DNA of 38,338 nucleotides, taken from a virus. A program made the translations under genes and the position numbers. Positions 1,158 to 37,822 of the stretch are shown piece after piece. The stretch covers positions 1-38,338 of the IMG/VR virus record IMGVR_UViG_3300006874_000039; one strand, 5' to 3'. Position 1 is the stretch's first letter. Every line of letters begins with the position of its first letter. The notes beneath the pieces are model-generated. The model did no database searches. It saw only the letters and a program-made list of their open reading frames with translations, and had not been told where the DNA came from.

Positions 1158-3281
1158 TTAGATTTCACAAGATCCACCTGCACAGGCAAGCTCTTGCTGT
1201 GGTGTGGTGTTATCTTGCAGTTCGATCAACTCCGTGTAGTCAACCGCAACTGCTCCTTCCTTTATAGAACAGTATCGATCGTATGTCCATAGGTCCTTTA
1301 GCAAATAAGTCACTTCTTTTTGTGAAATGTTGTACTTGTCTGAAAATGCCTGCAACTTCGCATCAAACTCCCTGTTTTTATTAAAGTCAAACAAGGCATC
1401 ATGGCACAATTGCCACAGTTCACCATCATTGTTGATGCCACTCAATAGCTCCCACCCATGAAGGACTGGGTCATTGCCGTAGTGTTTCATCATCTGCGAT
1501 GGCAAGTAGACCGCAGCAAACGGAGCTTGGGCATAGTCTTTATCGCCGGTGGCCGACAGCAGAGACACCCCGCAAAGGTGCTGCCGATTGTCGTAGATAA
1601 AGTCCTCCACAGTATCCCACTCTTCAGGCTCTACGTTGATTGTGTTGCTAACATTATGGGTAATTCCTTTTAGCTGGCAAAGATCCTCATTTGTACCTGG
1701 GACGACCCAGTGCTGTTGGGTGCTAACAACCGCCTTGAGCAAGCCCTCTGCCGATACCTTTCGCTTTGTGATTGCCCCTGATTTTGTTTCAATTGCGAAT
1801 GACACAACATCATCTGTTTGGTTTGCCGACCATACTGATGATTCACAGGAATCGCCATTAAACAACTTATAATGCCGATAAACTGGGTCGAGAGTGTTAG
1901 CCTGCACTCTGCGAATGTATCTTTTATAATGGTGTGGGTGGATCCCGCTAGATGTCCCTAATACACAACTGGCTGTTCCCTCTGGCTTTACACAGGTAGT
2001 CCTCGCAGCTGGTCTAATGCCGATCATATGAGCTATCAACCCATTAGCATACTTAACAACTTCCGCACCGTTCTCTTGTATCTTCTGATCCAGCAAGACT
2101 GAAGGATTCTCTTGCATACCCGTAATGGAAACGCCAAGTAAGCTTTCATATCCGAAGATGTTTTCACTTGCGGCTCCCAAGTATGGGAACTCGACAAACC
2201 CAGCCTGTAGCGTTCCGATGACCGCCGCCGAGAAAGCCGCCGAGTAAAAGTCGAATTCATCCTTAACCTTTGATCCATTGACTGTCGACAGGTTGCACCC
2301 CTGCCATCCCGTCTCGCCTGTGAGAGGACATTTTGGATACATGCCAATTTCAACGCATGGGTTTACGATCATGTCCAAATCATCCATCCAGACAAACCCA
2401 GGTTCGCCAAACTCCTTGACTGACCTCATTATCTCAGCGAACTGTTCTCGCGTCGTTTCATTTCTAAGTAGTGCGACGGAATTGTTGCTGCGTCCACGTT
2501 GCGGGTTTTCGACGAACCAGTTGCCTGTCTTTGCTTTAAGCATCTCAATATCATGCGGGGAGAAAACACAGATCGTCGCAGACCTGCGAACGCCACCACT
2601 AATAACTGCGTCAGCAAGGTGGCATACAATATCATAACAATCAATTGGGTGTAGTTTCTCATTCTTTACTGCGTTCTCCAGTACGAATTCAACTTTTTGT
2701 AATGCTTTCACTAATGGCTCTGGACCTGGGGCCTTCCCACCTGCCGACAATGGCGAACCTTTAGGTCGGATATCTGAGAAGTCGAACTCTGGCTTTTGGT
2801 TGTAGCCGAAGTAACTCTTGATTAAAAGGTCAGCAGCTGTTGACCATCCTTCGATGCTGTCAACAACCTTCATTGGTAATATCTTATCTGACGGGGTAAG
2901 CTTAGGAAGCTTTCTGACATGCTGCTCTTGAACGCTGTATCCGGTTCCACAGCCGCAAAGCAAAAGATAAAAGCATTCGCGAAAGAATTCAACACGGTCG
3001 CAATGTGAAGCCACACAGTTGAACATGCGAGCGTTATGCTTAAAGATAGGATCGCCAGCGAATTGCATTGAACGCATCGACGGCAGAACCTTCTTTGACA
3101 AAACATCGTCATATGCCCTGACAATAAAAGGTATAGACTCTGGGTAGTTTTTATATTTCTCCAGCATCATTGCTCGTGAACGCATGACACACTCTTCCCA
3201 AGTCTCGCGTCGTTGTTCATCAGGAAGGTATTTAGCGTATTTACTTTGGAAAGTGAAGTCGCTTAGGTTTTTGAGAGTCAT
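1158..3281 (-). CDS. nrdJ: Class II (adenosylcobalamin-dependent) ribonucleoside-triphosphate reductase
   Basis: Reduces ribonucleoside triphosphates to deoxyribonucleotides using a cobalamin-generated thiyl radical, supplying dNTPs for phage replication. The 707-aa length is close to the monomeric Lactobacillus leichmannii type (about 740). Visible landmarks are FNCVASHC (87-94) with one redox Cys, GGVRRSATI (229-237), NPQRGRSNNS (259-268), the active-site NPCVEI (307-312) carrying the radical Cys309 and Glu311, QGCNLS (327-332) with the partner redox Cys, and a C-terminal pair Cys700/Cys705 in CAGGSC for re-reduction by thioredoxin. No intein is seen. AGGA lies 7 bases before the start. Dependence on B12 implies a host that makes or imports cobalamin. 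The next gene starts within the stop codon. Confidence 0.95.
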   Translation of the reverse strand: MTLKNLSDFTFQSKYAKYLPDEQRRETWEECVMRSRAMMLEKYKNYPESIPFIVRAYDDVLSKKVLPSMRSMQFAGDPIFKHNARMFNCVASHCDRVEFFRECFYLLLCGCGTGYSVQEQHVRKLPKLTPSDKILPMKVVDSIEGWSTAADLLIKSYFGYNQKPEFDFSDIRPKGSPLSAGGKAPGPEPLVKALQKVEFVLENAVKNEKLHPIDCYDIVCHLADAVISGGVRRSATICVFSPHDIEMLKAKTGNWFVENPQRGRSNNSVALLRNETTREQFAEIMRSVKEFGEPGFVWMDDLDMIVNPCVEIGMYPKCPLTGETGWQGCNLSTVNGSKVKDEFDFYSAAFSAAVIGTLQAGFVEFPYLGAASENIFGYESLLGVSITGMQENPSVLLDQKIQENGAEVVKYANGLIAHMIGIRPAARTTCVKPEGTASCVLGTSSGIHPHHYKRYIRRVQANTLDPVYRHYKLFNGDSCESSVWSANQTDDVVSFAIETKSGAITKRKVSAEGLLKAVVSTQQHWVVPGTNEDLCQLKGITHNVSNTINVEPEEWDTVEDFIYDNRQHLCGVSLLSATGDKDYAQAPFAAVYLPSQMMKHYGNDPVLHGWELLSGINNDGELWQLCHDALFDFNKNREFDAKLQAFSDKYNISQKEVTYLLKDLWTYDRYCSIKEGAVAVDYTELIELQDNTTPQQELACAGGSCEI

Positions 3282-3330: not shown

Positions 3331-3576
3331 TTAAAAAGCACCGGACCTAATTTCACAGGTCTTGTCATAGTTGTTAGCAGAAGAACGGCGATTAATTTCA
3401 CGCTCGATATACCATACAGCCTTTCTGAGATCCTCAATCGGCTTCCCCTTGTGGTCGCACCTGATAATGTATTTAAGAGCGTTTCCCAGGCAGAAATTAA
3501 ATTGCTCAGTGACATCGATTGCCTCCCACCCAGAATTCTGGTTGTAATGTGAAGGATGGTTGACATTATCCTGCAT
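3331..3576 (-). CDS. DUF3310 family protein (81 aa)
   Basis: The sequence carries the signature of DUF3310, a small domain common in phage nucleotide-metabolism regions: NHPSHY near the N-terminus (6-11), then EAIDVTEQFNFCLGNALKYI and a second helix with DLRKAVWYIEREI. Function is not established in the family. The helical layout resembles MazG-like or nucleotide-associated small proteins, but I do not claim activity. GGAG lies 8 bases before the start at 3576, and the first 11 bases overlap the end of the PD-(D/E)XK-like gene. Position immediately upstream of the ribonucleotide reductase fits a link with dNTP metabolism. Confidence 0.85.
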   Translation of the reverse strand: MQDNVNHPSHYNQNSGWEAIDVTEQFNFCLGNALKYIIRCDHKGKPIEDLRKAVWYIEREINRRSSANNYDKTCEIRSGAF

Positions 3577-4135
3577 ACTTAAAACTCCTTAATCTGAAAT
3601 ACTTGCCATAGTTGTTCTTCCCGACAACTATTCCCATTTTGTTTCCCATATATGGAATGTGGTGGTGTTCCTCGTTCTCGTACATTTCCTGAAGTGTAAC
3701 AGGACCAACCAACGCCCACTTAAGCTCTCCACTCTTCCATGTATCACCGATCCTTTTCCAATGCTTTTTGATGTCAAGATCGGCAGGGACTTTAAGTGAC
3801 CTTTCGGACAGATTGAAGATTAGCAAGACCGTGGCATTCTTTTTAATGTAGTTACGCATATCGTTTGTTTTTAGCGTAAACTTCCCAGATGTTGGAACGA
3901 ACTTCATTTCCAGTGGAACCTCAAGCCCGTTTATCTTAGCAATGAAGTCCACATCCGAAGTGTCAACTCCGTCTGGGATGTAACCACCACCATTGTCTAC
4001 ACCGTTGTCAATATACCACTCACAACCAGAATTACTAGAGCTAGACCAAGCTTCCATTAGCTTGCCTTCTATGGCTGTAGTAAACTCTATGTGAGACTTA
4101 AACTGTTCAATCGTTCTGTTGTCCAGTCTTCCCAT
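3566..4135 (-). CDS. Probable PD-(D/E)XK-fold nuclease (189 aa)
   Basis: A D-x(14)-E-x-K arrangement (Asp61, Glu76, Lys78, within DVDF and LEMKF) follows a predicted strand-turn-strand, and the hydrophobic strand TVLLIFNL comes after it. This is the core pattern of the PD-(D/E)XK nuclease fold found in Holliday resolvases, VRR-NUC and restriction-like enzymes. An N-terminal helix (res. 9-30) may hold an extra Glu. The start at 4135 directly follows the stop of the RuvC-like gene and has GGAGGG 7 bases upstream. Its position next to a resolvase and the PrimPol supports a role in DNA processing. The fold call is from motif only; a non-catalytic or unrelated domain cannot be excluded. Confidence 0.55.
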   Translation of the reverse strand: MGRLDNRTIEQFKSHIEFTTAIEGKLMEAWSSSSNSGCEWYIDNGVDNGGGYIPDGVDTSDVDFIAKINGLEVPLEMKFVPTSGKFTLKTNDMRNYIKKNATVLLIFNLSERSLKVPADLDIKKHWKRIGDTWKSGELKWALVGPVTLQEMYENEEHHHIPYMGNKMGIVVGKNNYGKYFRLRSFKYAG

Positions 4136-4606
4136 CTACAGGCCCTCCTCCACTATCGATCCATAAGTTGCGATCAACAAAGCGTCCGCCGACCATAACG
4201 TAATCGGGAGTTTCCCACCCGTTTTGCCCAAAGATCCATACAGCTCTTCCGCTGCCTCCTTCAGCATGTTCTTGTCCCCTTTGCTCGTCGTCCCGATGAC
4301 TCTCTTTTGCCACGCTGCTGGCATCACCTCGTGATACTTCCATTCCAAAGCCTCGATTAACCCTAATATTCTCCCGACGCCACGACCAAAGTTAAAAGAT
4401 TGGGTTGCTCCCCAACCTCCTCGTCCTCGAACCGCTTCGATATAAACTATAACTTCATGCGATCTAATACCTGTTGTATATTCCCGGAACTGCTGCAATA
4501 TCAGATTGCCTGTTTGTGGTAACTTCTCCACAGCAATCCAGTCAGTATGAAAGTAAGCTACACCACCGTTCACACCTGGGTCGATACCTATGATCATCTT
4601 ATGCAT
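4136..4606 (-). CDS. RuvC-like Holliday junction resolvase
   Basis: Likely cuts four-way DNA junctions formed during recombination-dependent replication or before packaging. The 156-aa product has the RuvC/RNase H-fold pattern: GIDPG (7-11) with catalytic Asp9, the second-strand YIEAV with Glu57, and a C-terminal SADALLIA helix with Asp141. RuvC proteins are about 160-175 aa, so it is near full length. A glycine-rich run after Glu57 (GRGGWG) fits the substrate-facing loop. It overlaps the PrimPol gene's end by 8 bases and its stop abuts the next gene's start, showing tight coupling. The alternative start three codons later (MIIG) is possible. Catalytic residues are intact. Confidence 0.88.
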   Translation of the reverse strand: MHKMIIGIDPGVNGGVAYFHTDWIAVEKLPQTGNLILQQFREYTTGIRSHEVIVYIEAVRGRGGWGATQSFNFGRGVGRILGLIEALEWKYHEVMPAAWQKRVIGTTSKGDKNMLKEAAEELYGSLGKTGGKLPITLWSADALLIATYGSIVEEGL

Positions 4607-6668
4607 TTAAAAACAAAACCTTCTTTCTGTCGATAATCTTTTCTTCGAGCCTTCCGCTTTCGACAAGAGTACCGATCACACTTTGGTAAAGTTTGTTATC
4701 GCAGCCAATCTGCTTTAGTAAAGCAGTCTTTCCTATTGTTCCTTTAGCGTCTTTGATTATGCTAAACACCTCCATCTTCACCGCCTCAAATGAGCCACCA
4801 ATACCTAGTCGCTTGCGGCCCTCGGTTAGAACATATTCGCTAGTGTGGATGGCCCAGTCGATTCCCCATCGAGCATCAGCCTCAGTGACTTTCCAAGAAT
4901 CGGGGCTGCGGTCTAGGGCTCGCATTAAAGCGAGCTTCCTTGCCTTCTCTGGAGCCCGTCCCCAAATAGCTTGCTCCTCGTCAGTGGTGTATCCCTCTAC
5001 GACATCCCACAATTCATCATAAGCTCTTTCTGCTTCAGCCGAGACGGGAATGATCTCCGCATCTGGGTTGTCCTCTATCCCGATAGTTGATCCGAAGGTT
5101 GTGAATCGATTGATCCAGAAGTTTGTCCTGTCGACTAGTCGCTGGGGCGGATACATAAATTTGCGATTTTTTCTCTCTCCGCGTTTTCCAGTGTCAACGA
5201 CCATAATCCGTCCTGCAAATCCATCACGTAATTGCATTCTGGTGAGAGCCGACCAAAAATGGTCTGCTGTTGAATATCCGGAGAAGGAGAAGCAGGGCTG
5301 ATTGATAATAATATCCCGCTCCTTGTCCGCGTAGGCCTTAAGGCGATATCTTGAGTTAGCTGCACCCCAGAGGTCGAGGAGAGTGTCATTGATAGTCGCC
5401 ATGACTCCTCCTTTCGCCTTTTGCAGAAAAAGTCCGTATTCATCCCAGAGGCATAATAAGCTTGGCGTGTCCGAAAGTAACGAGCCAATTGCAGCATCAC
5501 TTGTAACCTTGCCAGCAACCTTGTTGGGATTCGAGCTGCGATCAAAAACAGCACGGATGCAGTCTTGAGGGGCTTGCTTGCCACCGCTAGAAGGTGCCAA
5601 GACCACTGTGTAAAGATTTGTTTTAGTTCCGCTTTCATCCATCACCCCTCGCCCTAAACAGGCACTATACCAACTAATAGCCCCAGTTACCGCAAGGGCT
5701 CGATTTGACCTTGAACTCTGCGATTCAATGTATTCTGCGAATTCGGCCATCCCACTGCCTTGGGGAAGCTTGAGCAGGTTATCTGGAATTTTACTAACCT
5801 GGGAAGTTGCAATTAAATTCGCATTGAGGGTACTCATTTCAATGTCATCGACCGACGCCTCTGGCATCTCCATTCGACCATAATCTTTATGCTTTTTAAT
5901 ATCTTCCTTTCGCAAGACTTCTCCGATTTTCCGTATCACATCATCGTCTCCCCATGGCGGATCACATTTTGGATTGAAGACATCCATGATAAGATCGTAA
6001 GCCACTTTAGGTGGAAGCTTAAAATCTATCAGCATTCGGCAACAAGCCTTGAAAAGGGCGTTGTGCCCATTATGGCCAGAGATGCTAGGATTCATAGTCT
6101 CCAAGTAGGCTCTAGCATCGCCCAGGATTGATTCTGAGACCTCTTCGTTGTCCCAATCGATTGGAGTGTCACACTTCTGCTTTAAGCCCTCAGAACAGTA
6201 TTCCTGCACGACCTCAGAGATGTCCCCTAATTGGGTGTAGTTTATCACATTTCCTGTGATCGTGAAAAATCGTCTAGCTGTGTAAACCTCAATTTTTTCT
6301 TTGGTTATTCCTTTTCGGTCAAACGGGCATGTTCCGATGAACTTAATGCCAGTCCCGCTAGGCGAAACTTCAGCATATGTTTCAAGTCGTTCAAGCATTT
6401 CTTCAGCGATAGGTGTGTACGATCCATCACCTAGAATGCAGTCGTCGAGGTCTATGCCAGCTAACCCATCGCCCTCGCGAAAGACAAAACCTATTCCATC
6501 ATATCCGCTCAGGTTCATGCACTCCACAGCCTCGTCATATGTTCCCCAGGTTGTTGGATCAGTGCTGCTTGCCGCCCCACCTTGAGGGTTAATTGGAAGC
6601 TTGCGGCCAGTGCGTCGATCCCAGCAGACCCATTGTTTGAGGTTTCGCAGGTCAGTAATGTCTTCCAT
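4599..6668 (-). CDS. Primase-polymerase / DUF3987 ATPase fusion (689 aa)
   Basis: The N-terminal part (about 1-160) matches archaeo-eukaryotic primase-type PrimPol domains: GIDLDD (71-76) supplies the metal-binding Asp pair, SPSGTGIK (102-109) is the second motif, and RFFTITG (133-139) the third region. A helical PriCT-like linker with NPKCDPPWGDDD follows (about 195-255). The C-terminal half is DUF3987-like: APSSGGKQ (358-365) in the Walker A position and LLCLWDE (404-410) in the Walker B position, probably a helicase-like ATPase, though the usual Ser/Thr after the Walker Lys is Gln here. This resembles the layout of single-protein phage replicases such as NrS-1 polymerase. It is the only polymerase candidate in the window. 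It overlaps both neighbours. Confidence 0.85.
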   Translation of the reverse strand: MEDITDLRNLKQWVCWDRRTGRKLPINPQGGAASSTDPTTWGTYDEAVECMNLSGYDGIGFVFREGDGLAGIDLDDCILGDGSYTPIAEEMLERLETYAEVSPSGTGIKFIGTCPFDRKGITKEKIEVYTARRFFTITGNVINYTQLGDISEVVQEYCSEGLKQKCDTPIDWDNEEVSESILGDARAYLETMNPSISGHNGHNALFKACCRMLIDFKLPPKVAYDLIMDVFNPKCDPPWGDDDVIRKIGEVLRKEDIKKHKDYGRMEMPEASVDDIEMSTLNANLIATSQVSKIPDNLLKLPQGSGMAEFAEYIESQSSRSNRALAVTGAISWYSACLGRGVMDESGTKTNLYTVVLAPSSGGKQAPQDCIRAVFDRSSNPNKVAGKVTSDAAIGSLLSDTPSLLCLWDEYGLFLQKAKGGVMATINDTLLDLWGAANSRYRLKAYADKERDIIINQPCFSFSGYSTADHFWSALTRMQLRDGFAGRIMVVDTGKRGERKNRKFMYPPQRLVDRTNFWINRFTTFGSTIGIEDNPDAEIIPVSAEAERAYDELWDVVEGYTTDEEQAIWGRAPEKARKLALMRALDRSPDSWKVTEADARWGIDWAIHTSEYVLTEGRKRLGIGGSFEAVKMEVFSIIKDAKGTIGKTALLKQIGCDNKLYQSVIGTLVESGRLEEKIIDRKKVLFLNA

Positions 6669-7274: not shown

Positions 7275-7769
7275 TTAGAAACTTGAAAAAGGATCGGAAT
7301 TTGAAACCTTACTCATCGTTGTCACTGGCTGCTGACTCGATGATTCACGCTTTTGGAATTCTTTCGGTCCTGGGTCGGAAACATTCTTGAAGATACGCCG
7401 AAGATTCAAATACCCCTTGCGTTCTTCAAGTCTTGCCCCAAAGGTCGAGTCAAGCAGATCATCAATATCATTGCATTTCTTTTCGTTCACCAATGCAATC
7501 TGCTTGATGTATTTAGCATTGGCTTTATTAATCCAATCAAGAGGAGCCCCTTTGATTGTAAGGTTGAACCAATGCCGAACCCCGTTATATTCTCCCTCAT
7601 CGGTGACTTCGCCTACCAGAACAACTTCGGATCGATCATCACCCTGATTAAACTTTGCATCAACAACCTTGAAGTTGTATTCACCCTGAACTAGCTTTTT
7701 AAAGCTGGTCTTCGGAGCAAAAACTTCTTCGCCTTCCAAAGCTTCATCGAGTTCGTTAAAAAGACTCAT
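7275..7769 (-). CDS. DUF669-type single-strand DNA-binding-like protein
   Basis: The 164-aa product resembles DUF669 phage proteins, which occur beside Sak4/Erf-type recombinases and are thought to bind single-stranded DNA. The core is strand-rich (YNFKVVDAKF, EVVLVGEVTD, HWFNLTIKG, residues about 30-73), as expected for an OB-like fold. The C-terminus ends SDPFSSF after a Ser/Gln-rich linker, resembling the partner-binding tip of bacterial SSB (acidic followed by Pro-Phe). Its start overlaps the end of the ATPase gene by one base, linking it to the recombinase. Role as the phage SSB is inferred from family and neighbours. Confidence 0.75.
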   Translation of the reverse strand: MSLFNELDEALEGEEVFAPKTSFKKLVQGEYNFKVVDAKFNQGDDRSEVVLVGEVTDEGEYNGVRHWFNLTIKGAPLDWINKANAKYIKQIALVNEKKCNDIDDLLDSTFGARLEERKGYLNLRRIFKNVSDPGPKEFQKRESSSQQPVTTMSKVSNSDPFSSF

Positions 7770-8506
7770 TATTCTACCCCTTTGTTAATTGCGTCTTGGA
7801 TTACATCCCAGTTCATTGGGATAACATCTTCCATTTCTAGGCGGCGTTTTGCTGTAACGGATGGTTTGCCCGTTGTCCGAAGTAGGACGCCGTTTCCACC
7901 TCGGACCTTAACTTCCTTTTTTCCGAACGCTCCCTTCTCCTCTGAGAATCTTAGGTCTTCAAAACAATAAAACACTTCATCGCAAACCTCAACCAAAGCT
8001 TCACTGAAATCCTTGTTAACAAGCTTTGGGTAATGTTTGTCGTATTCGGGATGTTCAGGATCTCGCTGTGGGATCACCATGTCATGTGCAATAACCAAGA
8101 CATTCTTTCCCATCTTATCCCGAACATACTTCAAAGCTGCCAGAAACTTATTCCATTCCTTACGGAGACTTTGCTTTCCGACACCGTACCCAATGTCGTT
8201 GATTGCGTCGACACCGTGCTGTTCACAAACCTTGGTTGTTAATAGTGTTTCGACCGAGTCAACAGCATCGATAACAAGCCAATCAAAAGACCAATTACCA
8301 GAAACCACATTTTGCCAAGCCTCCGAATGGTCATCATAGGTTGCAAGGTGCGGAGTCCGAGTTGGACCGATTTCGTCAACGCCGTCTTCATAGTTTAGAA
8401 AAAGATGCCCAGGTGCTGCTGCACCAAGAGTTGACTTCCCTTTACCGTGGGCACCGTACACGACCATCATTCGTGGCCGATTCTTCTTTCCACTAGTCAA
8501 TTCCAT
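7769..8506 (-). CDS. Sak4-like RecA-fold recombination ATPase
   Basis: A 245-aa AAA/RecA-core ATPase. Walker A GAHGKGKST lies at 18-26 and Walker B WLVIDAVDS at 76-84. Later strand NVLVIAHD fits the sensor region of Sak4-type phage annealing/recombination proteins, which are short RecA-like NTPases lacking extra domains. It likely promotes strand annealing or exchange together with the RecE-like nuclease upstream and the SSB-like protein downstream. The start at 8506 (MELTSG) is chosen because GAGGGG lies 4-5 bases upstream and it avoids overlap; a start at 8560 would overlap the nuclease gene by 46 bases. An alternative role is a RadA-like helicase loader. Confidence 0.82.
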   Translation of the reverse strand: MELTSGKKNRPRMMVVYGAHGKGKSTLGAAAPGHLFLNYEDGVDEIGPTRTPHLATYDDHSEAWQNVVSGNWSFDWLVIDAVDSVETLLTTKVCEQHGVDAINDIGYGVGKQSLRKEWNKFLAALKYVRDKMGKNVLVIAHDMVIPQRDPEHPEYDKHYPKLVNKDFSEALVEVCDEVFYCFEDLRFSEEKGAFGKKEVKVRGGNGVLLRTTGKPSVTAKRRLEMEDVIPMNWDVIQDAINKGVE

Positions 8507-8514
8507 AATACCCC

Positions 8515-9318
8515 TCACATAAACAAACCGCCAATGCTGTAATCCCCTAGTTCTCGACATTTTCTGGCCGCTGAAATCGCTCTATCGAACGAGCCCACCA
8601 TCCCAGGTGTTTCAAACTCTTCGCTTTCAATTAGCTTGGTATGATATGGATCTTCTTTTTGCACAAAGCCAAACACAAACCTGAAATCTGAAGGCTTGTG
8701 GCCAAGTGCGGAAGCCAGCAGACGTTTATAAGCCACCGACTGCCAACCATACTTAAACCGCATCCCAGACTCGAAGGCCGTTGTAATGTCACCTGTGGTC
8801 TTCAGATCGAAGATCAACTTGTCGCCATCCCAGGCGTCCATCTTCCCCTGGAATTTGACTCCTTCGAGAGTTCCTCGGATAGCCCACTCAACACGATTAC
8901 AGGCCCTAATCAAGTCACCCATCTCTGGGTCGGCCCTACAAGCTTGAGCTATATTTAGAGTTGTTTTGTATTCTTCCTCATTAATTGTTCTCCAGATGTT
9001 GTATTCGTTTTCTCTACAGAATTTCTCCCAAGATTTTGTCTCTCTCCCAAATGACTTCCCAGTCTTGGGGTTAATATGATCGGCAACGCTGAAGTTGTCG
9101 TTAAATGCATCATTACCCTCCAAGGTGAGACAGTGAATTGCTTGACCCATAATTAAGTGCGTTTTAGGGACTTCAAAATCACTGCGATTTGCTAAGTATG
9201 CTTCAAACGTCGTCGCGTCGTCGTAAAACCTTTTTAACAGGCTCACCGACATCATTTCGCCGTAAGAACCGTAATACTCCCTGTCGCTTATATTCTCAAC
9301 CTTCGCTTGTGTCTCCAC
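8515..9318 (-). CDS. RecE-like PD-(D/E)XK exonuclease
   Basis: A 267-aa protein resembling the PDDEXK-type exodeoxyribonuclease VIII C-terminal domain. Motif order is GQAIH (58-62, conserved His), GKMDAWDG (158-165) with Asp161, IFDLKTT (169-175) with Asp171 and Lys173, and QSVAYKR (193-199), the QxxxY helix of RecB-family nucleases. It would resect double-stranded ends to give single strands for the Sak4-like ATPase. The start is GTG at 9318 with GGAGG 5 bases upstream, overlapping the previous gene by 23 bases. Nuclease-recombinase-SSB adjacency is a classical phage recombination module. Confidence 0.85.
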   Translation of the reverse strand: METQAKVENISDREYYGSYGEMMSVSLLKRFYDDATTFEAYLANRSDFEVPKTHLIMGQAIHCLTLEGNDAFNDNFSVADHINPKTGKSFGRETKSWEKFCRENEYNIWRTINEEEYKTTLNIAQACRADPEMGDLIRACNRVEWAIRGTLEGVKFQGKMDAWDGDKLIFDLKTTGDITTAFESGMRFKYGWQSVAYKRLLASALGHKPSDFRFVFGFVQKEDPYHTKLIESEEFETPGMVGSFDRAISAARKCRELGDYSIGGLFM

Positions 9319-14301: not shown

Positions 14302-14613
14302 ATGACAGAGATACTTGTTTCATTATTCGGAGCCATCGGGGCCGTAGTTGCAAGCTATTTTTCGTACGCTGCTAATAGGCAGAGTAGGCGTAGCAATGTG
14401 TCGATTGAGCAGATCAACGACGCTGTTAACCATAGGCACAAGACTGGAACTCCCCGATTATACGACATGGTTTTGTCTAACTTTAATAGGGTTGGGCAAT
14501 TGGAAAAATCAGTAAAAGAAATTAAACGTGATATCAAAGACCTGTCACATGTTGTGTCAGTTCACGAAATTGAATTAGATAGCATAGAAGATAAAATAGA
14601 AGGGACCAACTAA
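14302..14613 (+). CDS. Membrane-anchored coiled-coil protein, DUF2746/holin-like
   Basis: Residues 3-22 form an N-terminal membrane segment (EILVSLFGAIGAVVASYFSY), followed by a basic patch (NRQSRRS), a conserved-looking centre AVNHRHKTGTPRLYDMV (about 41-57) and a coiled-coil tail with heptads (LEKSVKEIKRDIKDL). The central NHR-H-TGTPRLYD pattern resembles DUF2746-type phage membrane proteins sometimes considered holins. AGGGA lies about 6 bases upstream of the start, and the stop overlaps the next start as TAATG. With the peptidase nearby, this is the best alternative holin candidate. Role remains inferred. Confidence 0.6.
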   Translation: MTEILVSLFGAIGAVVASYFSYAANRQSRRSNVSIEQINDAVNHRHKTGTPRLYDMVLSNFNRVGQLEKSVKEIKRDIKDLSHVVSVHEIELDSIEDKIEGTN

Positions 14614-22832: not shown

Positions 22833-23146
22833 TGATAGATGATTGGAAATGCCCGGATTGTGAATATCATATCAGAAATGTTCAGTACCCTGTCCGATGC
22901 AAGTGTGGCGGCACTTTCTTCCATAACTCCTGGGACGGCCCACCATCACGAGAAAGGGTTGAAAGCAGGGGGCTTGGCGATGAGGTTGCCAAGCTAACAA
23001 AGGCCGTTGGGATTAAGCCATGCGGTGCATGTAAGAAGCGGCAACAGAAACTAAATGAGCTGGTGCCGAAGGAGGGGTCATGGGCAAATACAGCAAGACA
23101 GCTAATAAAGCAGGTGACGAGCGGAGGAAAAAGCAAGCCGAATTAA
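22832..23146 (+). CDS. Zinc-ribbon protein (104 aa) upstream of terminase
   Basis: Residues 7-10 (CPDC) and 23-25 (CKC) make a four-Cys zinc ribbon. A second motif CGACKKRQQKLNELVP (about 64-79), preceded by GLGDEVAKLTKAVGIK, is a segment I associate with short phage proteins of unknown role. The gene overlaps the Cys-rich gene as TAATG and runs 67 bases into the terminase gene. Its place and DNA-binding-like ribbon make it a candidate for a packaging or small-terminase-like function, but that is a guess from context. Confidence 0.65.
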   Translation: MIDDWKCPDCEYHIRNVQYPVRCKCGGTFFHNSWDGPPSRERVESRGLGDEVAKLTKAVGIKPCGACKKRQQKLNELVPKEGSWANTARQLIKQVTSGGKSKPN

Positions 23147-25170
23147 TGCGGCGGCAAAGAGCTGCAAGCATTGATCTTGATGTCATCCCAGCTCCAAAGA
23201 ATCAAGAACGTCGCGATGACTGCGAGCGAAACTTTAGGTTGTTCTGTGAACAATACAGGCCAGAGGTCTTCCATTTCGGCTGGTCCGATGATCACCTTAA
23301 GGTCATCGAAAGCATAGAGCAGATCGTATTAAATGGAGGGCTGATGGCCCTTGCAATGCCACGAGGGACAGGGAAAACCACCCTATCTATCACGGCAGCT
23401 ATGTGGGCTTTGTTGTATGGACACAGGAGGTGGGTTTGCCTTGTTGGTGCAACTGGCGGCAAGGCAGAAGCTTTGTTGAAAAGTATAAAGACCGAGCTGA
23501 GATTTAACCCTTCGCTGTTTGAGGACTTCCCAGAGGTTTGCGTTCCAATTAGGGCTCTTGAGGGAAGGCCAGCTAGAACTGTTTCCCAGACAGTTCAGGG
23601 AGTGCCTACAGCAATCCAATGGAATATGGATAAGCTCGTCCTCCCCTCGATTGAAAATAGTACCAGTTCTGGGTCAACTGTCAGTGTTTGTGGCATTACA
23701 GGAGACATTCGTGGGCAGCAAGAGACTACCATTGATGGTACGATTATCAGACCGGACCTATGCATTATCGACGACCCGCAAACTAGAGAATCTGCTGCTA
23801 GTGAAAAGCAGTGTAATGACCGCATTGAAACGATCCAAGGAGATATCCTCGGGCTCGCAGGACCGGGAGTAAAAATAGCATGTATCTTACCCTGCACTGT
23901 GATTCATCAATATGATGCAATTGATCGAATATTAGGTGACGAGTTTAAAGACTGGCGTTCATTCAGAACGAAGATGTTATACGGCAAAGCAAAGCATCCA
24001 GAGGAATGGGAGAAGTATGCGGTAGAACGAGACAGAATCATTTCTAACGACATTGACCTAAAGGTACTTAATGACTATTACCTTGAGCATCAGGAGTTGC
24101 TAGAAGAGGGATTGTACGCCTCGTGGCCGGAAAGAAAGAACGCTGATGAAGTGTCAGCAATACAACATGCTCAACATCTAAGGTTGAGGGATGAAAGAGC
24201 GTTCCTATCTGAATATCAGAATGAGCCTGAAGATCAGTCAGCAAAAGACATGATCACGGCAGATGAATTAAAAAGAAAAACTCATGATCTTGAGTTAGGT
24301 GTTGTTCCAGATGAGAGTGACACTCTGGTCGCTTTTGCTGATGTCCAGAAAGAAGCACTTTTCTGGATGGTAATGGCATTCTCGAAAAGGGACTTCACAG
24401 GCTGGGTTGTCGACTATGGACATTGGCCACAACAGCCCACAATGATGCAGAATTACAGAAATCTCAGAGTTAATGCATCTAGCTTGTATCCGGGAGAATC
24501 GCTTGAGGTTGTCCTTCGAGGACAGATGGAGGGGCTTACAATATATTTGCTGGATAGGGCATGGACTACTGAGCAAGGTATGCCAAGGAAGGTCGATAGG
24601 ATGCTCGTAGATGCAAACTGGGGGCAGTCGAGGGATGCAATCTACCAGTGGATATCAAGATCGCAATGGTCGCATCTTTTATTCCCATCGCATGGTAAAT
24701 TTGTTGGTGCATCCTCAGAGCCATTAAATGCCGGGCAGAAACCAAGTCCAACTAAATTTATTGGTACTCATTGGAGGATGACCATATCAAACGAAGTGAA
24801 AGTTAGATATTTCCTCTACGATGTAAACTTTTGGAAGACATATTCGCACGAGCGGTTGTCAACTGGGCTGTTTCAGGAAGGCAGTGTTAGCTTACCCAAG
24901 CCTCCATCTAAACACTATCATGACCAGCTTGTCAATAATCTGAGATCTGAATACCCGGTCACAGTTGAAGGTCGAGGTAGAACGGTTAAGGAATGGAAGT
25001 TAAAGCCTGGGGAAGACAATCACTTTTTTGATTGTTTTGTCGGATGTTATGTCGCCGCCTCTTCTTTAGGGTGTAGCGGCTCAGAAGAAGAGACTAAGTA
25101 CATTAACAGGAGTGGCAATGGCCAAAAGCAAAGACGACGACGCCGGATGGGATGGAAGCGGATTGAATAG
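23080..25170 (+). CDS. terL: Terminase large subunit (packaging ATPase/nuclease)
   Basis: Packages DNA into the prohead, powering translocation and cutting concatemers. The N-terminal ATPase has Walker A MPRGTGKTT (93-101) and Walker B LCIIDDPQ (227-234), with the first 40 residues basic and flexible. The C-terminal nuclease (RNase H-like) region shows AFADVQ, MLVDANWG and NHFFDCFVGCYVA near the end, each with an acidic residue in the expected strand or helix. The 696-aa length is on the larger side, similar to lambda-type TerL. GGAGG lies 4-6 bases upstream of the ATG at 23080, inside the previous gene. No obvious small terminase gene precedes it. Confidence 0.92.
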   Translation: MGKYSKTANKAGDERRKKQAELMRRQRAASIDLDVIPAPKNQERRDDCERNFRLFCEQYRPEVFHFGWSDDHLKVIESIEQIVLNGGLMALAMPRGTGKTTLSITAAMWALLYGHRRWVCLVGATGGKAEALLKSIKTELRFNPSLFEDFPEVCVPIRALEGRPARTVSQTVQGVPTAIQWNMDKLVLPSIENSTSSGSTVSVCGITGDIRGQQETTIDGTIIRPDLCIIDDPQTRESAASEKQCNDRIETIQGDILGLAGPGVKIACILPCTVIHQYDAIDRILGDEFKDWRSFRTKMLYGKAKHPEEWEKYAVERDRIISNDIDLKVLNDYYLEHQELLEEGLYASWPERKNADEVSAIQHAQHLRLRDERAFLSEYQNEPEDQSAKDMITADELKRKTHDLELGVVPDESDTLVAFADVQKEALFWMVMAFSKRDFTGWVVDYGHWPQQPTMMQNYRNLRVNASSLYPGESLEVVLRGQMEGLTIYLLDRAWTTEQGMPRKVDRMLVDANWGQSRDAIYQWISRSQWSHLLFPSHGKFVGASSEPLNAGQKPSPTKFIGTHWRMTISNEVKVRYFLYDVNFWKTYSHERLSTGLFQEGSVSLPKPPSKHYHDQLVNNLRSEYPVTVEGRGRTVKEWKLKPGEDNHFFDCFVGCYVAASSLGCSGSEEETKYINRSGNGQKQRRRRRMGWKRIE

Positions 25171-25444: not shown

Positions 25445-25580
25445 TGGCGTTTCAACTACGTTCGCAACGGGCGGATCAGAAAGCGTTCGGGCTCAACTTG
25501 AATACTGGGAAAAGGAACTTTCTCGTCTAACTAGGTCAGGTGGGGCGACAAGAACCATCGATCTTAGTGGAGGGCTGTAA
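25335..25580 (+). CDS. gpW-like head-tail joining protein (81 aa)
   Basis: Small helical protein with the profile of gpW-like head-tail connectors: a long helix (RIDFAKEMIEVLKERLKASAG), a short beta hairpin (QSVTADGVSTTFATGG), and a second helix (RAQLEYWEKELSRLTRSG). It lies directly before the portal gene, where lambda has gpW, and the length (81 aa versus 68 in lambda) is close. The function would be to stabilise packaged DNA and allow tail attachment. It starts within the previous gene and its stop overlaps the portal start as TAATG. Confidence 0.7.
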   Translation: MAKSKRTQDRIDFAKEMIEVLKERLKASAGIQSVTADGVSTTFATGGSESVRAQLEYWEKELSRLTRSGGATRTIDLSGGL

Positions 25581-30920: not shown

Positions 30921-31601
30921 GTGACACTCCGACTAAAACCAAAAATAAAAACAGCGATGGTCCCACCGAAAGTGATTGAACGAGAAGTCAAAAAGGTGTG
31001 GGATGACTTTGGAAAAAATGTTTGGGGTGATAACATGCGGGTCAAAGGCAGGAACCTAATTGGGAAACCAAGTGTTGCTGGAACTTTGACTCCGAGAGGA
31101 AGAGTTAGGAAGTTTAGAAAAACGAGACCTGAAGGGAAACCACCTATCTCGCGTGTTCCGGATTCTGAATTTGGCCTTCGTTATGCGAAACAGCCTCACT
31201 TTGCAACTAGCGGTGATTATACCATTGCGAGTCACTTCATGGGTGATGGCCGAGGTAGTCGAGCCACTCAAACTCTTGAGTATGGTGGGATGACCAGAAG
31301 CTGGTGGGTTTGGCTTCCGGAGTCTGGCCCACGTTTTAAGCGTATTAAGGGAAAGAGAAAGGGGAGAAAACCAGATAAGGTTATTTTCAACCCACAGATT
31401 GCCCGACATTTTGCTTATGCTGTGGAGGGGACAATTGTAAAGGCAAGAGATAAATTTACCCATCGTCCAGTTTTAAGTGTAGCGGCTTCATACGTAACAC
31501 CTAGAGCTGGTAAAGAATTTGCATCAATCCTACAAGAGAGATTCCGCCCAGGTGGGATGTCTGGCAAGGTTAGAGGCTGGAAAGGCAGGGCTAAAAAATG
31601 A
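30921..31601 (+). CDS. Basic hypothetical tail-region protein (226 aa)
   Basis: GTG start at 30921 with AGG 9 bases upstream. The product is strikingly basic (many Arg/Lys, clusters RVRKFRKTRPEGK and RIKGKRKGRKPDK) with a few strands (DYTIASHFMG, TQTLEYGGM, SWWVWLPE). Its final part (VLSVAASYVTPRAGKEFASIL) has some resemblance to HK97 gp10-like tail-completion proteins, which also carry a TLEYGG-type segment, but the match is partial. It overlaps the tape measure start by 4 bases (ATGA). Could be a minor tail protein or nucleic-acid binding assembly factor. Confidence 0.65.
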   Translation: MTLRLKPKIKTAMVPPKVIEREVKKVWDDFGKNVWGDNMRVKGRNLIGKPSVAGTLTPRGRVRKFRKTRPEGKPPISRVPDSEFGLRYAKQPHFATSGDYTIASHFMGDGRGSRATQTLEYGGMTRSWWVWLPESGPRFKRIKGKRKGRKPDKVIFNPQIARHFAYAVEGTIVKARDKFTHRPVLSVAASYVTPRAGKEFASILQERFRPGGMSGKVRGWKGRAKK

Positions 31602-34944: not shown

Positions 34945-34962
34945 TTTGATACCCCTCCCCCT

Positions 34963-35000
34963 ACCCCCTTCAGGCTTCGGCTTGTTGGGGGTCTTTTTTT
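34963..35000 (+). terminator. Terminator of the structural operon
   Basis: ACCCCC (34963-34968) pairs with GGGGGT (34987-34992), with an inner AGGC/GCTT pairing around a UUCG tetraloop, followed by seven T (34994-35000). It lies directly behind the last tail gene. The UUCG-capped stem plus U-run is a strong intrinsic terminator. Confidence 0.85.
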
Positions 35001-35311
35001 GTTTCTTGGGACTTCCCAGCAAAACGGGTTGACCGATTTTAAAAACACCCCCTCCCCCCCTCTGGTTTTGGGGGTTAATTCGGGTGGAATTTAGGCATAT
35101 CCCTCTCAAGGCTCCTGAGAGCCTTTCTAACGCACTCTAGGCGTTTCCCGCATGATATGTCAAAAAGCACGAGAAATTATCACAGGAGGCGTCTGAGAGC
35201 CTCGAATTCCTCCACGGGCCGCTGAAATGCCGCACAACAAACATCTGGGATGGCCAACAAGCACAAAAAAGCCCACAGTCACCTAAAGAGGGGGTTTGGG
35301 GACTTCCCAGC
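35001..35311. repeat. Gene-free stretch with dispersed short repeats
   Basis: No supported gene lies here. The 13-mer GGGACTTCCCAGC occurs at 35008-35020 and 35299-35311. CTGAGAGCCT occurs at 35115-35124 and 35193-35202, the first also forming a CTCTCA/TGAGAG hairpin (35103-35121). CCTAAAGAGGG occurs at 35282-35292 and again at 35377-35387 next to the tandem array. Such paired repeats in an untranslated stretch suggest protein-binding sites, for example for replication or packaging, though chance similarity of G/C-rich words cannot be ruled out. Confidence 0.45.
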
Positions 35312-35413
35312 GTTGGCTTAATTATTTCCCACGGGGATATTTTTCTGAAATTTCCGGGCCAAAAACCCCACACTTGCCTAAAGAGGGCTGGGGGCGAGGG
35401 GAGGAGGGGGAAA

Positions 35414-35638
35414 TTGCCCATTTTGCCTATCTTGCCTATTTTGCCTATTCTGCCTATTCTTCCCATCTTGCCTATTCTACCTATCCTGCCTATCTTGCCT
35501 AACTTGCCTAGTTTACCTAGTTTGCCTAAACCGCCCAAAATACCCAATTCGCCTAATTTGCCTAGTCTGCCCAATTCGCCCAAAACACCCAGTCTACTTA
35601 GTTTACTTATTTTGACCATTTTACCTAACCTGCCCAAG
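35414..35638 (+). repeat. Tandem array of 25 units of 9 bp
   Basis: Twenty-five contiguous 9-base units with consensus TTGCCTAtt, degenerate towards the right. A solitary unit lies just upstream (35373-35381). Because the period is three codons, frames stay open on both strands. The plus frame from TTG 35414 would encode 25 Leu-Pro-X triplets then a polar tail, ending 35698; AGGAGG lies 6 bases before that TTG. I class it as a repeat because nothing else supports translation: no promoter close upstream and no known protein. Alternatives are an origin iteron array, a partition or packaging site, or a coded LP-repeat peptide. Confidence 0.8.
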
Positions 35639-35715
35639 TTAACATCAACCCTGAGTTGTAGTCAAATTGACAACAAGCCGAAAAAAATGTCAATATAACC
35701 GATTTTTTGCTTGTT

Positions 35716-35732
35716 TTGGCATAGTAGTTGCA
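35716..35732 (+). promoter_or_regulatory. Sigma-54-like promoter site
   Basis: TTGGCATAGTAGTTGCA fits the sigma-54 consensus (YTGGCACGRNNNTTGCW) at all but two positions, with the correct 12-base spacing between the GG and GC cores. It points right, toward the 80-aa gene at 35852, and lies about 50 bases upstream of a sigma-70 promoter. No enhancer-binding protein is encoded nearby, so activity would depend on the host. A chance match in an AT-rich tract is possible. Confidence 0.4.
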
Positions 35733-35767
35733 CACAAAAAAAAATCTAAAAAAATTTATTTTTACTA

Positions 35768-35796
35768 TTGACAACCACTAGTCGATCCGATATAAT
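35768..35796 (+). promoter_or_regulatory. Consensus sigma-70 promoter for the right gene cluster
   Basis: TTGACA (35768-35773), a 17-base spacer, and TATAAT (35791-35796): both hexamers and the spacing are perfect. Upstream is an A/T-rich tract (about 35735-35767) that could act as an UP element. Transcription would start near 35803, about 50 bases before the 80-aa gene. Such a perfect promoter is typical of early phage genes read by the host polymerase. Confidence 0.85.
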
Positions 35797-35851
35797 ATAA
35801 GGACAAGCGGGACAAATCCGCATTCGATCTTTAACAATTGGAGTTTGATAA

Positions 35852-36512: not shown

Positions 36513-36896
36513 ATGATGAATATTAGACTAGGTGAAAAGGTTACGGTTCACGAGTATAAAGGGCAATTAAGGGTGTTTACAATCAATAGAAAGGGAGTTT
36601 TGGAGTATCATGGTGTGATGACATCTGTTTGCCTATCAAACGCAATTAGGAAGAATTCGCACACCATTGAGGGTGTTCTTGAAGGTTACGGTTTAGGGGA
36701 TTCTCACTCCGTCGCCATTCCTGCCGTATACGTTAAAGAATTCTTTCCTATGATAGGTAAAGATGACGGTTTTGGTTTGATTGGGGATTTTGTCGACGGT
36801 TCAAAAATTGGGGTTTCCGAGTATCATATTCTTTATGACAATAAAGAGTATGACGGTTTAGACTGTTTTTTAGGGGTTTCCGTTGATGATAATTGA
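36513..36896 (+). CDS. Hypothetical protein (127 aa)
   Basis: The start at 36513 (AGGGG 4-5 bases upstream) is chosen over an in-frame ATG at 36369, which would lie inside the previous gene. The product opens with a short strand-rich region (NIRLGEKVTVHEYKGQLRVFTINRKG), has a middle VCLSNAIRKNSHTIEGVLEGYGL, and an acidic, aromatic end (DDGFGLIGDFVDGS, YDNKEYDGLDCFLGVSVDDN). No family is recognised. Its stop lies about 90 bases before the GP88-like gene, most likely on the same transcript. Confidence 0.6.
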   Translation: MMNIRLGEKVTVHEYKGQLRVFTINRKGVLEYHGVMTSVCLSNAIRKNSHTIEGVLEGYGLGDSHSVAIPAVYVKEFFPMIGKDDGFGLIGDFVDGSKIGVSEYHILYDNKEYDGLDCFLGVSVDDN

Positions 36897-36988
36897 AGGG
36901 ATTCTTTACTCGGTTTTGCTTGTTTGTTTGTTTGTCCGTGGGTTTTGGTGTTTGGTCAATGAAGAGAAGGGATATGGGGACTACTAAA

Positions 36989-37822
36989 ATGAGTTACAAG
37001 CTTTTAGATCGTGTAGATAATGTTAATGAGATGACATTGAGAGATGCAAGGGAAGCTTGTGGGGATTATGGTTTTGCCGATTTAATAACGTCCCCGGACG
37101 CAAATTCCAAACTTGCTAAATCGGAAGGTTATCGAAATATCGGTGTTAGTCTAACTCCGTCGACGGTAGGTGTTTTGGATAATTGTCCCAATTCAACCCC
37201 TAAATGCCGTGCGGCGTGTTTGGCGTTTACTGGCCGTATTGAGATGGAGTCCGGAAAGGGTGGTGTTATCACGCGTAGTAGGCTAGGACGTACTAAACTA
37301 CTTGCCGATAACCCACGATTGTTTGCCGATGTTCTTTACACTCAATTACTGAGGGAAGAACGTAAGGCTAAACGAGACGGGGTAAATGTGGCATTTCGTC
37401 CGGACGTTTTGAGTGATAGGTTTTGGCATTTAGAGAATCCGTGGATTTTTGAAGCTTTCCCTAGTTGGGAAATCTACGGTTACACAAAATCCGCTTTAAA
37501 GGTTCAGCAGTTTACCGACGGGGAATTGCCTAAGAACTACCACATAACCTTTAGTTGGTCTGAATTGGCTAATCCGTTGTATTGCCGGACGATTTTGGAA
37601 TCCGGGGTAAATGTTGCGGTTCCATTTTATGACCGTCAAACCCTTAAAGGGTGTTTGTCTGATTCTTTTTTGGGGTTTCCGGTTATCGACGGGGATAAAT
37701 CAGACTTGCGGTTTTTAGACCCTAGTGGGGTTATCGTGGGATTACGGGCCAAACTACCTAAGCTTAGGGCTAGGGCGAACAAGAGGGTTTTGGGGTCTTC
37801 CGGTTTTTTTGTGGGGGTTTGA
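36989..37822 (+). CDS. GP88-family protein (277 aa)
   Basis: Matches the phage GP88 family (named from mycobacteriophage gp88), whose function is unknown. Characteristic features are the N-terminal NIGVSLTPSTVGVLDNCPNSTPKCRAACLAFTGR block, with three Cys spaced Cx6Cx3C, and RSRLGRTKLLADNPRLFADVL, followed by VAFRPDVLSDRFWHLENPWIFEAFPSWEIYGYTK, a row of strands with short helices that looks like a TIM-barrel-type order. The Cys trio may bind a metal or Fe-S cluster; that is speculation. The start is uncertain: ATG 36989 has GGGG 9 bases upstream, and 36974 or 36959 would give 282 or 287 aa. Confidence 0.75.
   Translation: MSYKLLDRVDNVNEMTLRDAREACGDYGFADLITSPDANSKLAKSEGYRNIGVSLTPSTVGVLDNCPNSTPKCRAACLAFTGRIEMESGKGGVITRSRLGRTKLLADNPRLFADVLYTQLLREERKAKRDGVNVAFRPDVLSDRFWHLENPWIFEAFPSWEIYGYTKSALKVQQFTDGELPKNYHITFSWSELANPLYCRTILESGVNVAVPFYDRQTLKGCLSDSFLGFPVIDGDKSDLRFLDPSGVIVGLRAKLPKLRARANKRVLGSSGFFVGV

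Follow-up and report, generated by a model that had tools for sequence, protein, structure and literature searches.

The iteron origins of phages lambda and P4 and of the iteron plasmids consist of direct repeats on a single strand, adjoined by promoters and an AT-rich stretch; DnaA boxes beside the iterons are common, though not universal. Classical iterons usually measure about 18-22 bp and lie in helical phase. The polymerase of phage NrS-1 recognises the 8-nt sequence 5'-TTTGGTTA-3' and starts DNA synthesis there without a primer, and this motif has been proposed to mark the origin (PMC8718748; PMC7102993); it is present in two copies, located mid-genome and on opposite strands (PMC7102993). 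At the left end of T7, CCTAAAG repeats with a 13-bp pitch stand on one strand, beside the terminal repeat and just left of the early promoters. Finally, the centromeres of type Ib plasmid partition systems (pSM19035 parS, pCXC100) are made of contiguous short direct repeats that adjoin promoters and are bound by a protein helix around the DNA.

The stretch of DNA analysed here, hereafter the window, is a 38,338-bp virus record of IMG/VR. At 35414-35638 (+ strand) it carries a tandem array of 25 abutting 9-bp units, with the consensus TTGCCTATT/TTGCCTAAT and the degenerate core NN[G/A]CC[T/C]ANN. The array shares with iteron origins the direct repeats on one strand, the adjoining AT-rich stretch and promoter and a primase-helicase of the phage's own, DnaA boxes being found in family relatives (see below). 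It differs from them in that its units are of 9 bp, abut without spacers and number 25. The likeness to NrS-1 lies in a PrimPol-helicase whose Prim/Pol domain matches the NrS-1 structures and in the array sequence TTTGCCTA, which resembles TTTGGTTA at 6 of 8 positions. However, the NrS-1 motif itself is not the window unit, and its two mid-genome copies contrast with 25 copies on one strand of a terminal noncoding region. As in T7, short directional CCTA(A) repeats are found just upstream of early sigma-70 promoters, but the pitch is 9 bp instead of 13 bp, and the two phages have no proteins in common. The contiguous short repeats adjoining a promoter recall the type Ib centromeres, whereas no partition genes were recognised in the window. 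A near-identical tandem unit, TTGCCTAYC, also forms minisatellites in a rumen Prevotella (G006), which occur at many loci genome-wide, show no link to an early module and have T or C at position 8, where the window has T, A or G. In that Prevotella (L145, L147, L182-L193), at least a dozen intergenic YYGCCTAYC arrays were seen, with up to 28 units and often at contig ends.

Structure of the array and constraint on its unit

The preliminary description of this DNA had reported 25 head-to-tail units of 9 bp, and this was confirmed: all lie in one phase and on one strand, with no indel across 225 bp. Self-identity at a lag of 9 is 0.69-0.70 over the 225 nt of the array and at most 0.41 in 225-nt stretches of the rest of the window. 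The left half is indeed more regular than the right, units 1-9 being mostly TTGCCTATT/C and the right units having diverged; within this diverged half, a 5-unit (45-bp) block is duplicated (units 11-20). The array has no match in Rfam, no related DNA was found for the window among sequenced phages, and the array-bearing sequence is a single one in the collections searched (n=1).

At positions 4, 5 and 7 of the unit (CC.A), 72 of the 75 letters are conserved; elsewhere in the unit, 95 of 150 are. Position 4 is C in 24 of the 25 units, position 5 is C in 23 and position 7 is A in all 25. At position 3, G is found 17 times, A 7 times and T once; positions 2 and 6 accept T or C only, and positions 1, 8 and 9 vary freely among the 25 units. 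The degenerate core of the unit is RCCYA, at positions 3-7. When the units are joined in a minimum spanning tree, positions 4, 5 and 7 receive only 2 of its 29 substitutions, where about 9.7 are expected (binomial ~0.001), a statistic that is suggestive and not strict because the repeats share ancestry. The array is real, and the distribution of its substitutions is suggestive of selective constraint on the core of the unit.

The noncoding region around the array

The array belongs to a noncoding region of 907 bp (34945-35851) that contains a terminator, hairpin repeats, the array, an AT-rich stretch and a promoter. The terminator previously attributed to the structural operon (~34957-34998) is visible in the sequence; a simple scan missed it owing to its long loop. 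The consensus promoter proposed for the right gene cluster also stands: a sigma-70 promoter of this early cluster, TTGACA-N17-TATAAT (35768-35796, + strand), matches at 12 of 12 positions. A solitary unit, TTGCCTAAA, is present upstream of the array on the + strand as had been described, although at 35374-35382 and not at 35373-35381. It is held within a 27-bp direct repeat, CCTAAAGAGGG (35361-35387, + strand), which is 85% identical to a first copy at 35266-35292 (+ strand) ending in ACCTAAAGAGGG. The heptamer CCTAAAG is found exactly at 35282 and at 35377, as two isolated copies left of the array. The noncoding region also contains GGGACTTCCCAGC in two copies (35008-35020 and 35299-35311) and a hairpin, AGGCTCCTGAGAGCCT (35109-35124), with a near copy at 35187-35202.

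The right flank of the array, at 35650-35800, is AT-rich (66-76% A+T in 50-nt steps). An AT-rich stretch beside the repeats is a trait of iteron origins, and this one would be a candidate unwinding element.

Gene content and genome ends

The leftward early genes include a PrimPol-helicase (4599-6668, - strand), the sole replicase recognised in the part of the window's open reading frames that was scanned. Its residues 7-168 match the Prim/Pol structures of the NrS-1 primase-polymerase (E 9e-21), and its C-terminal part is a DUF3987 helicase, making it a candidate initiator and replicase. Also on the - strand are a Holliday junction resolvase (4136-4606), a single-strand DNA binding protein (SSB; 7275-7769, a weak phrog match), a Sak4-like single-strand annealing ATPase (7769-8560) and a PDDEXK exonuclease resembling exonuclease VIII (8515-9318). 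The leftward genes further include a dUTPase and a ribonucleotide reductase (RNR); the latter (1158-3281, - strand) is a class II, B12-dependent enzyme whose best phage relatives are ~42% identical. The structural operon, which is directed rightward, includes the genes for TerL (23080-25170), the portal (at 25580) and the tape measure (at 31598). A gp88-family gene (PF17338/phrog_1617; 36893-37822, + strand) is the marker of an early module that the window has in common with G001, G604, G605 and other contigs.

The window and a second contig of the same species (G003, L148), ~3% diverged over 12 kb, have an identical starting base, and a common start is also seen for G001 with G002 (L138 1, L140 1). 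Such coinciding starts of independent contigs, in two phage species, suggest fixed physical genome ends, situated away from the array.

A family of RCCYA-9 sites in other phages

Units of the same kind were found in other phages. In this analysis, units of 9 bp that stand in tandem and read RCCYA at positions 3-7 define what we call the RCCYA-9 phage site family. Clusters of 2-7 units of this type (TAGCCTAAA, CCGCCYAAA, TGACCYAAA) were seen at 20 or more IMG/VR loci, and their grammar, N N R CC Y A A N, has its fixed and variable positions where the window array has them. A scan of IMG/VR with TAGCCTAAACCGCCYAA gave 21 stretches, mostly clusters of pairs spaced 9 bp apart, and a second pattern scan gave further loci with arrays of 3-7 units (4 in L012, 5 in L007, 7 in L110); contigs with a 463-residue open reading frame match this second pattern inside the gene and were left out of the family. 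Array lengths vary from phage to phage, so that the 25 units of the window are an extreme, and even close relatives (L096/L058 and L110) have either 4 or 7 units.

Family sites occupy the noncoding region between divergent terminase and early genes, with the TerS/TerL genes adjoining, and in the whole contigs of 15 family records the two-unit pattern is limited to that region. The window array, too, is confined to a single noncoding region upstream of the early module, with one stray pair at 14376. In an alignment of 12 genomes, 85% of the columns within the core but 13% of the remaining columns are invariant, distinct clades being just 45-49% identical outside the core. The family sites are arranged in inverted orientation around an AT-rich centre, as dispersed clusters of 18-27 bp; the window does not have this trait, every one of its units being on the + strand. 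The two-unit RCCYAA pattern is absent from the related phage DSL-LC05, from two Manatee Spring phages and from T7. Phages with the same terminase as the family have other repeats at this place, for example three ACCCACTGGGT palindromes in DSL-LC05. Among family-related loci without RCCYA-9 sites, L237 carries ACCCACTGGGT palindromes (3554-4292) and L238 carries GTTTACGTAAAC (3939-3975), suggesting a fast turnover of the site code. On sequence grounds, the window array is best described as an expanded version of the 9-bp unit clusters that are found in unrelated phages.

One member of the family is linked to the window by a longer word. A 17-mer, GCCTAAACCGCCCAAAA, in units 13-14 (35524-35540, + strand), has an exact match upstream of gp88 in contig G604/L136, in a region that holds several TAGCCTAAA-CCGCCYAAA copies. 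The gp88 proteins of the two phages are 29% identical, and one further weak BLAST match (E 0.01) was found between them. None of 1000 dinucleotide-shuffled arrays reaches 17, and the same length is attained by 1 of 2000 column-permuted arrays, in which core and period are kept, and by 0 of 2000 position-permuted ones. With the weight matrix of the family, the real array scores above 1999 of 2000 position-permuted versions. Since some 13 gp88 regions were examined, the link to G604 is not free of selection, yet it is strong.

The family phages encode their own primase-helicases, and the helicase of G604 matches the C-terminal ring of NrS-1 at 3e-8. A perfect DnaA box, TTATCCACA, occurs three times in all in the family contigs searched, once in each of three contigs, and every copy is inside the site region, within ~130 bp of the sites; there is none near the window array. 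No protein turned up that the window has in common with every site-bearing phage. Gp88 was ruled out as the binding protein, several site-bearing phages being without it, and DUF3310, a second small protein in common, is generic. An early protein of L210 (4636-4881, + strand) resembles the DNA-binding domain of DnaA (PF08299, E 9e-6, under the Pfam cut-off); as it is common to several site-bearing phages, it is a candidate binder of their 9-bp sites.

The nearest relatives

The nearest relative of the window phage is G001 (36,990 bp, ~45% amino-acid identity), and the structural genes common to the window, G001 and G002 are roughly 30-70% identical in amino-acid sequence. A search of related genomes for the array had been proposed as a check on the origin idea: G001 is without it, and a search of G001 and G002 revealed no array comparable to that of the window. 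The primase of G001 is 33% identical to that of the window, and one 13-mer, TTTGCCTATCTTG, is common to the two regions. In G001, the gp88 module sits after the primase gene and not after the structural operon. Upstream of it is a noncoding stretch of ~0.8 kb, repeat-rich as in the window, but with other repeats; they include 11-bp tandem repeats in three copies, AT-rich repeats of 28 bp, also in three copies (AAAAAAGTTGAGA..CTCTATATATG), and hairpins rich in GC (L139, 14703-15210). Thus, a repeat-rich region accompanies the gp88 module in both phages, while the repeats differ. Compared with the window, G001 (L138/L139) has the gp88 module and the right end in place and the remaining genome inverted. 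Iteron-like repeats upstream of gp88 were also observed in L127 (five TTCTTAAACGCAGTA copies, 5080-5186) and in L133 (four ~25-bp CCATAAATCGTAT copies, 5129-5238).

Possible functions of the array

The array is constrained and shares its repeat word with the control region of unrelated viruses, and for these reasons it probably serves as a docking array to which a protein binds, most likely where DNA replication would start. The interpretation to which we tentatively incline, giving it a little less than an even chance, is that of a cis-acting protein-binding array (iterons) in the early (gp88) control region, most likely forming part of the replication origin. The repeated and constrained units would be candidate binding units for an initiator. 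A phage initiator may bind contiguous units and form a spiral about the DNA, with one unit every 9 bp, and the bound protein would then open the AT-rich right flank and load the replisome. The most plausible initiator would be the phage's own PrimPol-helicase, as a relative of the NrS-1 polymerase; the AlphaFold model of its C-terminus (pLDDT 45) is too poor for a DNA-binding domain to show. The origin or iteron function suggested in the preliminary description fares unevenly. It gains from the RCCYA clusters of other phages, the DnaA boxes of three of them and the NrS-1-type PrimPol, and it loses from the lack of an array in G001 and of a skew switch. Indeed, the change of GC skew looked for at 35.4 kb was not seen, the cumulative minimum being at 11.5 kb, and cumulative GC skew shows no switch at the site regions of G604 and G609. 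A narrower version, which we regard as rather unlikely, is the origin of a PrimPol-only replicon, in which an NrS-1-like enzyme would recognise each RCCYA unit and start synthesis without a primer on a 25-fold template motif; TTTGGTTA is absent from the array, and its single copy in the window is at 6300. If true, RCCYA-9 would be a new origin code, recurring horizontally in unrelated phages with quite different replisomes.

A somewhat unlikely alternative makes the array an operator with no role in replication: a regulator of phage or host origin would bind cooperatively to the units and thereby govern the early promoter, which is 130-160 bp further downstream. The array does stand upstream of a perfect sigma-70 promoter, the family sites are flanked by terminase and early genes that diverge from each other, and in L058, L096 and L110 the array is directly downstream of a TTGACA...TACCCT promoter; moreover, the other repeats of close same-terminase phages such as DSL-LC05 are as expected of fast-changing regulator/operator pairs. 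However, 25 adjoining units would be a large number for an operator, ~130 bp separate the end of the array from the -35 box, the early window proteins scanned include no recognised regulator, and the DnaA boxes in three family regions, together with their AT-rich centre, point to replication. Origin and operator are not separated by the present data, and both can coincide. The array could also be a functionless 9-bp minisatellite grown by replication slippage, its likeness to the phage family being a matter of convergence. The left-right gradient of regularity fits one-sided growth, and the unit number differs between the close relatives L096/L058 and L110. Similar TTGCCTAYC arrays exist in unrelated genomes, chiefly in a single rumen Prevotella with a dozen or more such intergenic loci, and tandem TTGCCTATY is also found in a few bacterial genomes; since the same word can evidently arise independently, this explanation is kept alive. 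Yet drift should strike all nine positions, and here the core is kept and the phase is free of indels; constraint on the family core is clear among phages whose identity elsewhere is ~45-49%; and the Prevotella match came from a word search of 257 billion bases, the phage match from 13 gp88 neighbours. We hold slippage without function to be decidedly improbable.

The packaging and partition roles that had been envisaged for the array find no support. A packaging or concatemer-processing site would be the counterpart of the short CCTAAAG repeats of T7, which likewise run on one strand just left of early promoters, and the two exact CCTAAAG copies left of the array and the TerS/TerL genes adjoining the family sites go in the same direction. 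This is nonetheless highly improbable: the window TerL is 10 kb away, T7 is without the two-unit RCCYAA pattern and differs in pitch and unit, and the fixed contig starts (two contigs begin at base 1) put the genome end at window base 1, which is 2.9 kb past the array across the right end. A role in partition, with the array as a centromere bound by a ribbon-helix-helix protein in the manner of the type Ib plasmids, would be in keeping with the short contiguous direct repeats typical of such centromeres, that of pCXC100 having direct repeats only (PMC5016525). It is hardly credible here, because the early proteins scanned include no ParA/ParB or ribbon-helix-helix match, and the small protein adjacent to the promoter is modelled mostly as beta-strands (pLDDT 67), not as a ribbon-helix-helix, with no match in the PDB. 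Just as improbable is a protein-coding repeat, either (LPx)n in the + frame (35414-35698) or ([LIM]G[KRE])n in the - frame (35137-35637). Both frames are open across the array, the + frame has a TTG start 7 nt past AGGAGG, a good ribosome-binding sequence, and the one protein-family match of the two frames is that of the - frame to the Pfam collagen-repeat model, a match due to its period-3 glycine. Against this, neither frame has a significant excess of synonymous changes (12/29 for 9.2 expected; 11/29 for 8.6), the tails and flanking residues of the open reading frames look random, a promoter scan gives none for either, and the family sites form scattered clusters of 18-27 bp that face both ways.

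Two other candidates were set aside. A Rho utilisation site would account for a C-rich, G-poor sequence but leaves the invariant A at position 7 unexplained, and in G001 the noncoding region goes with the gp88 module and not with the structural operon; it was judged unlikely. An origin of the cyanobacterial tandem-repeat kind was rejected as well: the guess of a cyanobacterial host, made from tail-protein matches, was not confirmed, and the long CCYA-9 arrays of 291 cyanobacterial genomes are mostly CCCATGCCG-type repeats, coding-like in appearance.

Significance for phage replication

Outside a few models, the origins of phages are mostly unknown. The window array is the largest of the phage RCCYA-9 arrays seen, and it belongs to a phage with a relative of a self-priming polymerase; it would therefore be a good substrate with which to study motif-directed, primer-free initiation. 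More generally, a 9-bp RCCYA code, which dozens of contigs from uncultured phages carry at a single place, offers a testable handle on the start of replication or on an early-gene switch in these phages.
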